64,000 nucleotides of DNA from Chitinophaga pinensis (GTDB lineage Bacteria > Pseudomonadota > Gammaproteobacteria > Burkholderiales > SG8-41). Where the stretch lies: positions 62,001 through 126,000 of the forward strand of contig CALQCM020000006.1 of assembly GCA_943329075.2 (NCBI GenBank), in the 5' to 3' direction. This document shows positions 27,765-34,664 of the stretch, one piece after another. The notes under the pieces are model-generated. The model was not told where the DNA came from. It saw only the letters and a list, made by a program, of their open reading frames with translations, and did not search any database. The translations under genes and the position numbers were made by a program. Each line of letters starts with the position of its first letter. The stretch's first letter is position 1.

Positions 27765-28244
27765 ATGACAACCGCCGAAAACCCCAGACCGCCGTTCCCG
27801 CCTTTTGACGCCGTCACTGCCGCGCAGAAGGTGCGCATGGCCGAGGACGCCTGGAACACGCGCGACCCGGTGAAAGTCTCGCTCGCCTACACGCCCGACA
27901 GCGTGTGGCGCAACCGCGCCGAGTTTCTGTCAGGTCGCGAGGACATCGTCGAATTTCTTACGCGCAAATGGAACAGGGAACTCGAGTACCGGCTGATCAA
28001 GGAGCTGTGGGCGTTTCACGGCAACCGCATCGCCGTGCGCTTTGCCTATGAATGGCGCGACGACTCCGGCCACTGGTTCCGCTCTTACGGCAACGAGAAT
28101 TGGGAATTCAGCGCGACGGGATTCATGCAGCGCCGCATCGCCAGCATCAACGACATGCCGATTGCGGAAAACGAACGCAAATACTTCTGGCCGCTCGGCC
28201 GCCGGCCCGACGATCACCCGGGTCTTTCTGAACTGGGTCTTTAG
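27765..28244 (+). CDS. DUF1348 (NTF2-like) small protein
   Basis: 159 residues with AAAGGA before the ATG. It matches the DUF1348 nuclear-transport-factor-2-like family: [73 protein letters not shown]. Members are about 150 residues, cytoplasmic and without assigned activity. Its 3' end overlaps the convergent amidohydrolase by 4 bp. Confidence 0.92.
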
Positions 28245-29110
28245 AAGCCGTAGAGCTGCGCCGGATTGTCGACGAGAATTTTCCTGCGCAGTTCCGCGTC
28301 CGGCGCCCACACCGCCAAAAGATCCAGCAGATCGGCGTCGTTCGGCATGAAGCCGTCGAACACCACGTGCGGCCAGTCGCTGCCCCACAGCACGCGGTCG
28401 GGGCCGGCGGCAATGATGGCCTGCGCGAACGGCGTCACCTGCGGATAAGGCGGACGCGGATCACCGAAACGCATCGGCGCCGACAGCTTCACCCAGCAGC
28501 GCTTTTCGCGCAGCATCTGCAGCATCAACTGGAAACCGGGTTCCTTGATCGTCGCCTCCGGCGGCATGTGGCCGAGATGATCGATGACGATTTCGACGCC
28601 GAGTTTGTCAAAGCGCGGTGCGAATTCAGGCAACCGGCGCGCGTCGAGATGAAACTGCGCATGCCAGCCCAGCGGTTTGATGCGCGCGACGATCGCTTCG
28701 AGATGGCGCAATTCAGTCTCGGCATCGTAATAGGGATTGAAACGCACACCGCGAAAGCCGGCCGCGTGCATTTCGCGCAGTTGTGCGTCGGTAAAATCAG
28801 GATTGGGCAGCGCAATCGCGCGCCAGCGGCCGTTGGACGCGCGCAACGCCGCCAGCGCACCGCTGGTGTCGCGCGGCAGCACCGTCTGCACGATCACCGC
28901 GCGCTCGATGCCGAGTGCATTGATCATATTGCAGTATTCGTCGAGACCGGCGTCCGGCGGCGTGTACGGCGGGTGGTCGATGTAGGGTTTGCTGAAGAGA
29001 TGAAAATGCGTGTCGCAGGCGCCGGCCGGCACTTCGATTTTTGGTTTGCGCGTGGCGAGATCGGGCGTGTGGCAGGGTATGCCGCGCAGTGTGTGTCGGG
29101 TTTCGGCCAT
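28241..29110 (-). CDS. amidohydrolase-family hydrolase (LigI / 2-pyrone-4,6-dicarboxylate lactonase-like)
   Basis: 289 residues, cytoplasmic. The TIM-barrel metal motif DTHFHLF (residues 33-39), [10 protein letters not shown], the HLGHMPP strand and WGSDWPH near the C-terminus match the LigI-like branch, which opens lactones of dicarboxylic acids. It is the last gene of a minus-strand unit with receptor 7 and the two-domain CMD selenoprotein (38 bp gap), suggesting all three serve one substrate. Confidence 0.88.
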
Positions 29111-29148: not shown

Positions 29149-30525
29149 TTACCCGGGGCCGGCGTCGATCTGCGGCAATACCGCCGGCCAGTCGGCGACA
29201 ACCCGCTCGATATAGCGCCTGAGCCGCGCCGGATCGGCAACAACCGTTGCATACAATGCGAAAATTTCAGATGCGGGTTCAAGCGGTACGCGCAGCGCGT
29301 TGTAGATCAGATCCGCATTGCTGGTGATCGCACATAGCGCAGTCATCTCGACCACTTCAGCATCGCTAAAGTGTTTCTTCAGCTCGCTGAAAACCGCCTC
29401 GTCGCGCTTGGCGGTATTCGGCGCCACCAGCGCCGCCCACGCAATGGCGGCCCGCTCGCGAGGCGAAAATTCCGGTGCGGTCGCCGCATCGGTACGCTTC
29501 AACGCGACCAGTTGCGACTCGGAAAGGCCCGTGGCGCCTGCGAGCACGGTGTGATGCGCGATCATGTATTTCGCGCCGTGCAGGTGATGGGTCTTCAACA
29601 TTATCATCAGCCGCAGCGGTGCCGGCAGGATGCTGCCGGCACCATCGCGTTCAAATGCAAAGTAAAACGGCACAAACATCTTGGCGACATGCGGCGTGTG
29701 CGCCCAGACTTTCGCCGCATTGGTCGTGCCGCCGAGCAATGCACTGGCCGCCGTGATAAATCGCGCGCCATCGGCGCCCGTCGTGTTGGTATCGAGAACC
29801 GGCACGCGGCAGCCGCGCGTATCTCCGGCCGGCAACGCGGCGGGGCTTGCAACGGTCGTCAGCGCCGCCGCTTTTGGAAACTCGTCCGGCCAGTGTTCGA
29901 GAATGCGTTCGAGATAAGCCTTGAGTTTCGCCGGATCGGCGCGCACCGAGGTGCGAATCTTGTCGACCTCGTGCTGCTCTTCGATCGGCAAACGCATTGA
30001 ATCCTGAAACCGGTTCGACTGCCCGAAGAGGCCGCAAACCGCGGTCAGCTCGACAAATTCCGCATCGCTGAAATGCGCTTTGACTTCGGCTGCAATGTCG
30101 TCGCGGTCACGCGCGGTGTTTCTCGCCACATGTTCGGCCCACAGCACCGCAGCCCTTTCGCGCGGCGCAAAATGCGTCGAAGTGAGATAGTCATCTGAAC
30201 TGATCGCCGCGACCTGTTCATCGGTAATGCCGGACGCCAGACCTAGCGCCGTATTGTGGGCTATTCAGTAATTGCAGGTATTGACGTGACTGGTTTTGAG
30301 TATGGCCATTTCCTTGATACGACACGACAGTACGCCGCCGGCACCCTCGCGCTGCAGCACGGTACCGGCCGGCAACTGGAATTTGGCAATGTAGGGAATA
30401 TGGCCCCAGACACGTGTTGAATTCGGCACACGTCCGCGCATCTGCGCGCTGGCCTCAAAGAAACGAGCGGTCTCGCCGGTGGCGGTTTCAAGCTCAAGAA
30501 TCGGTGCCCTAACTTCGTAGACCAT
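29149..30525 (-). CDS. two-domain CMD/AhpD-like selenoprotein (in-frame UGA at 30265-30267)
   Basis: 458 residues if UGA codon 87 is read as selenocysteine; without it only an 86-residue stub and an orphan 332-residue frame remain, in the same phase. AAAGGAAAG precedes the ATG at 30525. Domain 1 (about 1-200) has VNTCNY-UGA-IAHN, where the AhpD family has C-x-x-C-x-x-H; the downstream sequence continues the fold without a break (APRERAAVLWAEHVARN). Domain 2 (about 210-458) repeats it but reads HGAKYMIAHH, so Cys and Sec are replaced by Ala318 and Met321. Only domain 1 can do thiol/selenol redox chemistry. A hairpin follows the UGA. The receptor gene ends 27 bp upstream and the amidohydrolase follows. 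Alternative: a pseudogene with one nonsense mutation, made unlikely by the same UGA in two relatives nearby. Confidence 0.85.
30233..30250 (-). promoter_or_regulatory. putative bacterial SECIS hairpin of the two-domain CMD gene
   Basis: Starting 15 nt after the UGA, GGCGCTA pairs with TGGCGTC (7 bp, two G-U) around the loop GGTC. The loop equals the GGUC of the E. coli fdhF SECIS as I remember it. G-U is 23-24 nt after the UGA. Confidence 0.75.
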
Positions 30526-30552: not shown

Positions 30553-31530
30553 TCAATCAATGCTGACGCGGGTCGTGCGAAAACTTTTTCTGAGTGATTC
30601 GAGATCGTTTTTCATGAATGCCGCAAATTCCTCCGGCTGATCGCCAACGACCACATAACCCAGGTCAGTCAGCCGCCGGTTGATTTCCGCATTGCCGATC
30701 GCCGCCAGCACCGCATTGCGCAACGTCGTCACAATGGCCTTCGGCGTTTTCAGCGGCAACACGATGCCGTACCAGTTGCCCGCCGCATAGTTCGGATAAC
30801 CCGCCTCGGCAATGGTCGGCACATTGGGTAGAAGCGGGCTGCGTTTCGCGGAAGTCAGCGCCAGCAGGCGCAGACTTCCATGCTGTATATGCGGCAGCGT
30901 CGAGGCAATCGGTCCGAACATCAATTGTGTTTCGCCCGTCAGCACTGCAGTCAATGCCTCACCGCCACCGCGGTAAGGCACGTGCAGCAGATCAACACCC
31001 GCCATTGCGGCGAACAATGCGCCGGCCGAATACGACGGCGCACCCGTGCCGGCAGAACCAAAGCTCACCGCGCCGGGTCGCGACTTGGCCAGTTTGACCA
31101 ATTCTGTAATCGATTTCGCCGGCAGCGACGGATGCGCAACGACTGCATTCGGCGCGTTCGCAATCTGGGTCACCGGCGTGAAATCACGCAACAAATCATA
31201 CGGCAGCTTGCTCGACAAAGCGGCGGCTACCGTATGCGTCGCACTCACCTGCAGAATTGTGTATCCGTCGGGCACCGCCTTCGCCACGTATTCAGAACCG
31301 ATTGTGCCCGAAGCACCGGTGCGGTTCTCCACCACCACCTGCTGACCGAGCGCCGCGGTCATGCCGCCACCGACCAGACGGCCGATCACATCGGCACCGC
31401 TACCCGCTGAGGTTGAAACGATAAACCGCAGTGGTTTAACCGGAAACGACTGCGCAATCGCAGCGCCGGCGTGCATAGTGATCAACGCAAAGATCGCCAA
31501 ACGCATTTTCCAAATTAATTCCGACACCAT
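30553..31530 (-). CDS. Bug/TctC periplasmic solute receptor 7
   Basis: 325 residues from 31530; an ATG at 31506 would give 317 and is also plausible. Leader ends AGAAIAQ before SFPVKPLRFIV. Motifs: STSAGSGADVIGRL, VPDGYTILQ, AHPSLPAKS, HVPYRGG, PTIAEAGYPNYA. First gene of the unit receptor, CMD selenoprotein, amidohydrolase. The 97-bp gap to the divergent CMD gene at 31628 should hold both promoters. Confidence 0.92.
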   Translation of the reverse strand: MVSELIWKMRLAIFALITMHAGAAIAQSFPVKPLRFIVSTSAGSGADVIGRLVGGGMTAALGQQVVVENRTGASGTIGSEYVAKAVPDGYTILQVSATHTVAAALSSKLPYDLLRDFTPVTQIANAPNAVVAHPSLPAKSITELVKLAKSRPGAVSFGSAGTGAPSYSAGALFAAMAGVDLLHVPYRGGGEALTAVLTGETQLMFGPIASTLPHIQHGSLRLLALTSAKRSPLLPNVPTIAEAGYPNYAAGNWYGIVLPLKTPKAIVTTLRNAVLAAIGNAEINRRLTDLGYVVVGDQPEEFAAFMKNDLESLRKSFRTTRVSID

Positions 31531-31627
31531 GCCGTAGATCCCAGTTGATTTTTGAATCACATTTGCAACGCGCTACGTTAACATATCCACTACACCGCCA
31601 CGACACCACTTTCAGGAAGGACAAACG

Positions 31628-32260
31628 ATGACGCAACGACTGCACGGCATTACCGACAACGAAGCCACCGGCATGGCCAAAGAGGTCATCGACTCCTGCG
31701 CTGCACTTTTGGGACGCGTCGCCAATCTCCAGCGCATCCTGAATCACAGTCCTGAACTGGCAAAATGGGTACTCGGTCTCGTCGTGGCGGTGCGTCAACC
31801 CGCCGCGGGTGCCGTATCGGATGTCCGCTTGCGCAATCTCGCTACGTTGAAAACATCAACGCTCAACGGTTGCCAATATTGAACAGAACACAATCGGGTG
31901 CTTGGTCAAGCACTGGGACTCACCGATGCCGAGTTTGACGCACTGCAGGGCGATTACCGGCAAAGCGCTCTCTTCAACGAACGCGAAAAAGCCGTACTCG
32001 CATGGGCCGAGGCGATGACGCTGAACACGGCCAAACAAAGCGGCAAACATTGGGACGACCTGCGGCGCCTGTTCAGCGATGCCGAAATCGTGGAAATTTC
32101 GCTGATCACGGGACTCTTCAACATGATCAACCGGCTCAACGATTCGTTCCGCACCGAACTCGAACCCGCCGAGGTCAACCGCCGCCAGGGCGGCGCCCTC
32201 GGTGTCTCACTGTCGGCGCTCAACGAATACGGCTGCCGGGTCTGCGCGGCCCGCACCTGA
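31628..32260 (+). CDS. CMD/AhpD-like selenoprotein (in-frame UGA at 31880-31882)
   Basis: 210 residues with UGA codon 85 as selenocysteine. AGGAAGG precedes the ATG. The motif is LNGCQY-UGA-TEHN, aligned exactly with the relatives at 29149 and 34038: C-x-Y-Sec-x-x-H-N. After the UGA the same frame gives VLGQALGLTDAEFDALQ, then EREKAVLAWAEAMTLNTA and a typical C-terminal helix pair (VEISLITGLFNMINRLND). Family members reduce peroxides or disulfides through the CxxC pair; Sec at the second position would raise reactivity. It is divergent from receptor 7 and converges with the selenoprotein-B-like gene, 10 bp apart. Confidence 0.87.
31897..31914 (+). promoter_or_regulatory. putative bacterial SECIS hairpin of the CMD gene at 31628
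   Basis: GGTGCTT pairs with AAGCACT (six Watson-Crick pairs plus one G-U) around loop GGTC, starting 15 nt after the UGA. Loop sequence and distance are identical to those at 30233. Confidence 0.82.
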
Positions 32261-32270
32261 TCCGGAATCG

Positions 32271-33476
32271 TCAGGCGGTTTCGAGCAACACGCCGCGCGG
32301 CACCAGCGACGTCGCCTGCAGTTTTTGCAGCGAGGCGTCGCTGCTGGCGACGCAGATTTTATACAGGGCCAGAAACGCCTGACCGCAAGCAGTGTCGCGC
32401 CAGAACCAGTTCTGGATCGCATCAGCGTTTGGCGTGCCTGGCCGCGCCGCAGCTGCCTCGTAGTAGTAGTTACGCAGATCCTCGCAGACGAGCTTGACCG
32501 TTTCGCCGGTGTTGAGTCCGTCGATCGAGGTGATCGTCTGATCGCGCAGAAACTGCGCCAGCGCCAGCGCCGCTGCCACTGGCGACAACTTGCTCAAGCC
32601 GACCATGCTGTGGCCACGCCGCTCGCGCGCGCGATCGTGCCAGGGCTGCAACGCTTCAACTTCGCGCACCAGCACCGCATCAGGACTACTGTCGGCCGCC
32701 TGCGCAAAACTGACCGGACAGGCAACACCCTGCGCCTCGTCATCCGACGCGGGTGCGTCTTCCGGATAGTCGGCGAGCACCGGACCTGACGGCGCTTCGA
32801 GCAGCCTTAACGCCGCCGTCAACACCCGCGCCTGAAATGCCGCGTCGTTCGGCACACCGAACGGACGACCGAGCATGAACGAGACCCACAACGCGCGCGG
32901 CGGATTGATCGCCATGGTGTGCTCGCGAATCAGCGAGATCTGCGTGGTGGCGACCCCCGCCGCTTCGATGAACTGCCCGAGTGCGCCGACGGCGCACGTG
33001 CAGTTTGGTCATATCGGTGTCAGCAATACCGCATCGACGCGGTCGTCCTTCAATAATTGCGCAAGTTCCTTCGCTTTTGTTTCAAGCTGGCGGATCTGCG
33101 TGGCACCCATGAACGAATAATGGAAATCGGCTACCGCACCGACGACGCCCTGTTTCGCCAGTTCGTTCAGACGGTCGAGCGGAAAGGCAACGTTGTGATC
33201 TTCCTGAAAACCGGTGCGGTCGAAATTCACCGATTGATGGCTCATCACCAGATCGGTGGCCTTCGTATCGCCCGGGATAATCCGGTAATCCGTAGCGCCT
33301 GGTCCGAATGGACGGTCGCCTTTGCGATGCACGCCGGCGGTCGTGACAATTGCAATCCGGCATTGCGCCAGCGGCGGCGGCTTCACCCATGGCCGCGCAT
33401 CCCAGCCGGTCAGCTCCTTCAGTTTGTCGAGCTTGTTCTTGCGGTCCCACTCCGGCAGATCGGCCAAACGCACCAT
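32271..33476 (-). CDS. glycine/betaine/sarcosine/D-proline reductase selenoprotein B-like (in-frame UGA at 33009-33011)
   Basis: 401 residues with UGA codon 156 as selenocysteine. The N-terminal part matches proteobacterial selenoprotein-B-like proteins (MVRLADLPEW, VTTAGVHRKGDRPFG, VMSHQSVNFDRTGFQED, ADFHYSFMGAT, VDAVLLTPI). The frame continues after the UGA with PNCTCAVGALGQFIEAAG and TTQISLIREHTMAINPPRAL, giving a U-x-x-C redox pair as in GrdB/PrdB. In clostridia these enzymes cleave C-N bonds with thioredoxin or a cofactor as reductant; the aerobic proteobacterial versions have no established substrate. The C-terminal ~190 residues extend past the reductase core. No GrdA, GrdC or PrdA partner is nearby. 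GAGGGAAGA precedes the ATG. Confidence 0.87.
32981..32997 (-). promoter_or_regulatory. putative bacterial SECIS hairpin of the selenoprotein-B-like gene
   Basis: GTGCGCC pairs with GGCGCAC, 7 bp without mismatch, loop GTC (or 6 bp with loop CGTCG), starting 12 nt after the UGA. G-U is 19-20 nt after the UGA. Confidence 0.82.
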
Positions 33477-33962: not shown

Positions 33963-34037
33963 GCCGCCGGCTTTTTCGACATCCCCCATCTAAAAAATAT
34001 GCGCCGCCGCACGGTGCAACACTACCAGGAGAACATC

Positions 34038-34664
34038 ATGGCGAGACTGCCTTTTGTCGAAGACAACACTGAATCAAAGGAAGTGCGCGCGGCCTTCGAA
34101 GCTGCGCGTCGTTTCAACGGCCGCGTGGCCAACTCGATGCGCCTCTACGCGCATTCGCCGGCCATCCTTAAGTTCTTGTTGCCCTTGCAAGCCGTGCTGC
34201 AGAAGGACGGCCTCGGCTGCAAGATCGACGCGAAAACGCGTGCGCTGGCCATGATCAAGGTCTCGGCGCTCAACGAATGCAAGTATTGAATTAAGCACAA
34301 TCGCCTGGTTGGGCGAACGGCAGGCTGGAGCGAAGAGCAACTCGAAACCCTGAGCGGCGACGATTACTTGAACAGCGATCTGTTCGGCGAGCGTGAAAAA
34401 GCGGTTATCCGCTGGGCCGAACTGGTCACCTGGAACAAGGCGCGCTACGACGGCGAGGCATTCAAAAAACTGGCCGCACATTTCGACAGCACCGAGATAG
34501 TCGAACTCACCACCGTCGCTGCATTTCGCGGCCTGATGAACCGCTTTATCGACTCGCTGCAGATCGAACTCGAAGGCCCGGAACTGCAGGCCGCCGGCGG
34601 ACGCGCGGCGGCGAGTCAGGAAGACCTGCACGCCTATATCGAAGAACTGGTTAATCTGCGCTAG
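34038..34664 (+). CDS. CMD/AhpD-like selenoprotein (in-frame UGA at 34287-34289)
   Basis: 208 residues with UGA codon 84 as selenocysteine; AGGAGA precedes the ATG at 34038. The site reads LNECKY-UGA-IKHN. The frame then continues with RLVGRTAGWSEEQLETLSGD, EREKAVIRWAELVTWNKA and VELTTVAAFRGLMNRFID, collinear with the CMD gene at 31628, so the UGA lies inside one domain. The preceding segment ALAMIKVSALNEC is the usual helix leading to the AhpD CxxC. It is second in the GFA-led plus-strand unit. Confidence 0.87.
34301..34316 (+). promoter_or_regulatory. putative bacterial SECIS hairpin of the CMD gene at 34038
   Basis: TCGCCT pairs with GGGCGA (6 bp, one G-U) around loop GGTT, starting 12 nt after the UGA. 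G-U is 19-20 nt after the UGA. Confidence 0.75.

Follow-up and report, generated by a model that had tools for sequence, protein, structure and literature searches.

A gene in the window (the whole stretch of 64,000 nucleotides that was analysed) encodes a selenoprotein with two CMD domains in a single chain, of which only the first retains the Cys-Sec pair of its active site. The protein has the order of the sestrins, active domain first and dead domain second, in a bacterium, and it is predicted to superpose over most of its length on Sestrin2. By comparison with characterized relatives and a structural model, it is probably a covalent pseudo-dimer, in which an AhpD-like, Sec-dependent (alkyl)hydroperoxide reductase is joined to a dead partner domain. 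It thus provides an example of a selenoprotein with Sec kept in just one of two duplicated domains and, because single-domain Sec relatives are still present in the lineage, the fusion, the loss at the second site and the subsequent drift can be followed step by step.

The frame of the tandem gene is interrupted by a single TGA, which falls at residue 87, and its ATG is preceded by the Shine-Dalgarno sequence AAAGGAAAG (Table 1). Under the standard code the gene splits into ORFs of 86 and 332 residues, so that automatic annotation would miss the full protein and give two fragments. A second start that would turn domain 2 into a protein of its own was looked for, and none preceded by a Shine-Dalgarno sequence is present near the domain boundary of the window gene; separate translation of domain 2 was consequently rejected.

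Table 1. Features of the tandem CMD selenoprotein gene and its neighbours (positions in the window)
Feature	Position	Strand	Remarks
Tandem CMD selenoprotein gene	29149..30525	minus	458 aa; start ATG 30525, stop 29149-29151
Domain 1, residues 1-222	29860..30525	minus	Sec domain, catalytically complete as judged from its residues
Active-site motif C84-N-Y86-U87	30265..30276	minus	UGA codon 30265-30267
Glu72, counterpart of the AhpD proton-relay Glu	30310..30312	minus	Leu306 in domain 2; relay roles per PMC3141380
SECIS hairpin, 7 bp stem, GGUC loop	30233..30250	minus	bases 18-35, U of UGA = 1
Interdomain linker, residues 223-239	29809..29859	minus	low conservation; palindromic repeat inserted in G061 and relatives
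Domain 2, residues 240-458	29152..29808	minus	CMD fold; catalytic Glu, Cys and Sec lost
A318-K-Y320-M321, dead counterpart of the active site	29563..29574	minus	
Amidohydrolase_2 gene	28241..29110	minus	38 bp downstream of tandem gene
TctC/Bug solute-receptor gene	30553..31560	minus	27 bp upstream of tandem gene
Single-domain Sec CMD protein (CQYU)	31628..32260	plus	divergent from tandem gene; beside the tandem in G006 too
Second single-domain Sec CMD protein (CKYU)	33999..34664	plus	

The in-frame UGA is a real Sec codon, because the genome has SelA, SelB, SelD and tRNA-Sec and because a covarying GGUC hairpin follows the UGA. SelA is found at 602.7 bits, SelB at 432.6 bits with an adjoining tRNA-Sec gene (75.5 bits), and SelD at 416 bits, itself with an in-frame TGA; all the hallmarks of a selenoprotein gene (in-frame UGA, SECIS element and Sec machinery in the genome) are therefore present. 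The UGA is kept in nine genomes and is followed on its 3' side by the covarying hairpin, in which bases 18-24 pair with bases 29-35. Among 23 distinct sequences, 95% of cells are paired, versus 24-50% in controls with slid partners, and there are nine double changes around an invariant GGUC loop. In the window gene and its counterpart in G006, for example, a Gln codon (CAA) has become Leu (CUG/CUA) and the neighbouring Leu codon has changed from CUU to CUA, with the closing pair restored. When the window is scanned with a covariance model of the hairpin, the score is 56.2 bits at the UGA of the tandem gene, 68.1 bits at that of the divergent single-domain gene and a weak 13.5 bits at that of the third UGA-CMD gene (33999); everything else is at or below 8.1 bits. 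An Rfam search returned zero SECIS matches. In the 33999 gene the SECIS (34287-34319, plus strand) is shifted towards the UGA by about four bases relative to most of the family, and the same is seen in L057 and L058. The reading of the UGA as a true stop, or of the gene as a pseudogene, is ruled out by the Sec machinery, the covarying SECIS and the purifying selection described below.

The original prediction of two CMD domains is borne out by the Pfam profile PF02627, which matches both halves of the protein (59 bits over two stretches) and still recognizes domain 2 alone, at 26.8 bits versus a cut-off of 23. With a sequence match and a predicted all-helical CMD fold in each domain, the protein belongs to the CMD/AhpD-like superfamily. 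The two domains of the window protein are 38% identical over 217 residues (34-43% in the orthologs), and the alignment places C84 and U87 opposite A318 and M321, exactly as had been proposed. Three further points were absent from that proposal. The catalytic Glu has also gone from domain 2 (E72 to L306), whereas the Tyr (Y86/Y320) and a His (His90/His324) are retained in both domains, and domain 2 is a full-length copy that includes the C-terminal tail helix with its W-P-x3-P motif (W212, P213 and P217 in domain 1; W446, P447 and P451 in domain 2). The relay of AhpD consists of a Glu, the CxxC motif, a Tyr or His between the cysteines, and a His at C+4 (PMC3141380). Domain 1 carries E72, C84, Y86 and U87 of this signature, but Asn91 at C+4, and in domain 2 the Glu is replaced by Leu, the Cys by Ala and the Sec by Met. 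Replacement of the C+4 His by Asn (HN) or Thr (HT) is found in all Sec CMD proteins with a listed motif. More specific profiles stay below their curated cut-offs: TIGR01926 (peroxidase-related enzyme) scores 72.9 bits over two stretches against 81.8, and NF053654 (YciW-related (seleno)protein) 89.6 bits against 310. Matches to TAL effectors in the Pfam and PDB sequence searches cover one short stretch, below cut-off or without a significant domain, and were discarded.

AlphaFold2 was run on eight sequences, with Sec entered as Cys. The model of the full protein (pLDDT 90.6, pTM 0.93) contains two CMD folds in which the same helix series occurs twice; a different fold in domain 2 did not appear, and the expectation that domain 2 keeps the helices surrounding the lost active site holds in the predicted structure. 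Folded alone, from five sequences, domain 2 reaches a pLDDT of 61.7, and this low-confidence model was kept out of the fold searches. The top PDB match of the tandem model in Foldseek is Sestrin2, which VIA-align superposes with a Z of 25.4 and 3.1 Å over 282 residues, covering model residues 18-414 in both domains; the single-domain CMD proteins 6K40, 2OYO, 2PFX, Bmp8 and 2PRR reach Z 13.6-14.6 over about 180 residues. Since the Sestrin2 superposition spans both domains, the placement of the domains relative to each other, beyond the two folds, would resemble that of sestrin, and the model can be described as two AhpD-like domains in predicted sestrin packing. The structures on which AlphaFold was trained include Sestrin2 and AhpD-like crystals, so that this packing may have been reproduced from them instead of being derived independently. 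According to Kim et al. (2015, PMC4674687), Sesn-A and Sesn-C of Sestrin2 together overlap the dimer formed by 2PRR, an AhpD-like protein from bacteria. As the model is like Sestrin2 and Sestrin2 is like the 2PRR dimer, the tandem would most simply be a fused AhpD-like dimer. The original prediction had offered an active plus structural domain arrangement or an oligomer mimic, and both descriptions would fit: in each of the six full tandems domain 2 has lost its catalytic residues, yet its fold is kept in the model, and the predicted packing superposes on a protein that itself overlaps a dimer.

The sestrin parallel was absent from the original prediction. As in human Sestrin2 (PDB 5DJ4/5T0N/5CUF), one chain contains two AhpD-like domains, packed alike according to the model, with a redox residue retained in the N-terminal domain and catalysis lost in the C-terminal one. 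Sesn-A reduces alkyl hydroperoxides, cumene hydroperoxide among them, via Cys125, and Sesn-C has lost the catalytic residues (PMC4674687). The tandem differs from sestrins in being bacterial and in using a Cys-Sec pair versus the single Cys125. Sestrins are defined by an electronegative hinge of the DDYDY type that replaces a helix in the second domain, and their bacterial analogues are without it (PMC11429811). When this acidic hinge was sought in domain 2 of the tandem, residues 309-333 were found to contain no Asp or Glu, and the model shows an unbroken helix 319-331, with just the short linker between the domains. Because the hinge is missing, the tandem protein is not a sestrin, and a sequence search with the protein gave no sestrin among its matches.

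The search for other tandems with one dead domain, which the original prediction had called for, found five further genomes of the same family, the fusion L103 and published bacterial fusions. Bacterial AhpD-like tandems with one dead domain are thus already known: the fused dimers of Corynebacterium ureicelerivorans and Comamonas aquatica described in a 2024 review (PMC11429811) likewise have two AhpD-like domains, one without catalytic cysteines, and a sestrin-like shape. In these proteins, however, the dead domain comes first, at the N-terminus, and is followed by an active Cys-Cys domain, whereas the tandem described here has the reverse order and uses Sec. What is new is the active-first order with a Cys-Sec pair and, at the level of the model, the full-length sestrin-like superposition. 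L103, a TIGR04030 (Avi_7169-type) fusion from a genome of the same order, joins an N-terminal part without Cys, called CMD-like by reading its sequence and not by a profile match, to a C-terminal CVYC domain. It differs from the tandem in being dead-first, in using Cys rather than Sec and in belonging to another subfamily; the tandem protein scores 16.6 bits against TIGR04030, whose cut-off is 233. AhpD-like CxxU selenoproteins of the TIGR01926/COG2128/PF02627 types share the motif and the family, and single-domain members occur in the window and in related genomes, but the accessible text of the two reports on them (PMC2398784, PMC13188914) describes no tandem with a dead second domain. The model NF041238 (AhpD_rel_CFYUT, 357 positions) also has a Sec CxxU in an AhpD-like domain and is long enough for two domains, but domain 1 aligns with the last third of this model, at 35.8 bits versus a cut-off of 175. 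No NF041238 members were found in 398 genomes, a result that is silent on their domain order.

The full tandem is present in 6 of the 74 genomes of the family: the window's genome (G000), G006, G024, G090, G081 and G061. Incomplete cases are cut by contig ends (G016 and G060), form a fragment at a contig start (G074) or are a broken hybrid (G004). No tandem was found in 399 sampled genomes of the order outside the family, where at most four candidates per genome were scored, and a plasmid search gave no record covering 80% of the tandem protein. The named records with relatives of the tandem are uncultured betaproteobacterial MAGs, and a Nitrospinota MAG contains the nearest single-domain protein, which shares 55% identity with domain 1. 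All six full tandems have Glu72, Cys84, Tyr86 and Sec87 (E..C-x-Y-U) in domain 1; in domain 2 the E place is taken by A/L/M/V, the C place by A/S and the U place by L/M/S/T, and the Tyr and the His (His90/His324) are kept. In the tree, the sequences of domain 1 (including L086, which is the G060 copy cut by a contig end) form one group and those of domain 2 another, both with 100/99 support, indicating that a single duplication predates these lineages.

In the favoured pseudo-dimer reading, domain 1 would be a reductase that depends on Sec and most probably acts on organic hydroperoxides. By analogy with Cys133/Cys130 of AhpD (PMC3141380), Sec87 would attack the peroxide and Cys84 would be the resolving residue, giving a selenenylsulfide. 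Glu72 and Tyr86 would assist catalysis, and a cellular thiol system would recharge the domain. Sec has a low pKa, which may make the relay His unnecessary in domain 1. Domain 2, a dead copy from one old duplication, would occupy the seat of the second subunit of a homodimer, where it would stabilize domain 1 and might have its own surface freed for docking of a partner. A scan of the neighbours identified no partner gene of the AhpC or thioredoxin type, and this, the Asn in place of the relay His in domain 1 and the use of the CMD fold for debromination in Bmp8 are points against the peroxidase reading.

Domain 2 is still under purifying selection, with dN/dS of 0.15-0.40 in the pairs where it is measurable, and it is kept whole in six genomes. 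This agrees with the notion that domain 2 has a function of its own in binding a ligand or partner, as does Sesn-C, which has lost catalysis and binds leucine and GATOR2. The sestrin-like architecture and active/dead order, as well as 12 positions whose invariance is confined to domain 2 (K373, H279 and P286 among them), point the same way. Positions invariant in domain 1 alone number 73, however, the dN of domain 2 is roughly double that of domain 1 in most pairs, no conserved partner gene adjoins, and the acidic hinge is missing, so that an independent function for domain 2 appears unlikely. If the parallel extended to function as well as shape, the tandem would be the prokaryotic equivalent of sestrin: a Janus protein with one domain that uses Sec to detoxify peroxides and a dead one for metabolite sensing or the docking of a regulator, having either an independent origin or a fused-dimer ancestor shared with sestrins; this is rather doubtful.

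Alternatively, domain 1 may reduce another electrophile, for instance by reductive dehalogenation, with domain 2 as its structural partner. The debrominase Bmp8, a relative with one domain, superposes on domain 1 with a Z of 13.9 and 2.1 Å over 171 residues, and the setting of Bug receptors, amidohydrolase, acyl-CoA dehydrogenase and thiolase-like genes is catabolic. Peroxidase-related proteins match the structure equally well, though, and the neighbouring genes are not conserved, which makes this chemistry quite unlikely. That domain 2 is a decaying relic, fused by happenstance, is highly improbable: its faster evolution relative to domain 1 and the loss of the tandem's middle in G004, by a join inside an NTA motif, would fit, but dN/dS is well below 1 in all measurable pairs, the frames are open in six of six full tandems, 34 positions are invariant and identical across both domains, and the G004 version is out of frame. 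That hybrid (L088/L056) passes from the first half of domain 1 to the second half of domain 2 at the NTA motif that they share, and represents either a collapsed tandem or a sequence error.

Comparison of G000 with G006 reveals a break at the linker. Identity between the two genomes is 92-94% for domain 1, for the Bug gene upstream of it and for the divergently transcribed CMD gene, and 88% for selA, located elsewhere; the DNA of domain 2 is 69% identical (window 29152-29808 versus L089:2428-3087), and the alignment ends with domain 2. At the domain boundary, third-position identity drops from about 0.78 to 0.45, and dS is 0.45 for domain 1 and 1.67 for domain 2. Relaxed selection was rejected as the whole cause, since synonymous divergence jumps at the boundary too. 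Given the 88% identity of selA, domain 2 and the sequence downstream look like a swapped allele, and the data suggest that such a swap explains the break better than relaxed selection does. The record that matches G006, CAMDSO010000126.1 (L089), is a MAG contig titled Bordetella parapertussis, a title that looks wrong because G006 and the window's genome are assigned to one genus. The linker of G061 (L085) harbors a GC-rich palindromic repeat (CCCTCTCCC...GGGAGAGGG) in frame; similar sequence is found in G016 (L055), and the G060 contig (L086) ends there.

Among the neighbours, the TctC/Bug gene possibly forms an operon with the tandem gene. It is conserved upstream in G006, and receptor genes lie upstream in G090 too, while the Amidohydrolase_2 gene was not found beside the scanned orthologs. 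The genome also encodes, on contigs C55, C23, C68, C17, C113 and C3, six tandem proteins of the gamma-CMD type that are without any CxxC. A GRDB/PrdB-like gene (32271-33476, minus strand; PF07355, 42.7 bits) with an in-frame TGA and the motif TPIUPNCTC is located between the two single-domain Sec CMD genes, bringing the number of likely selenoprotein genes to four within about 5.5 kb.
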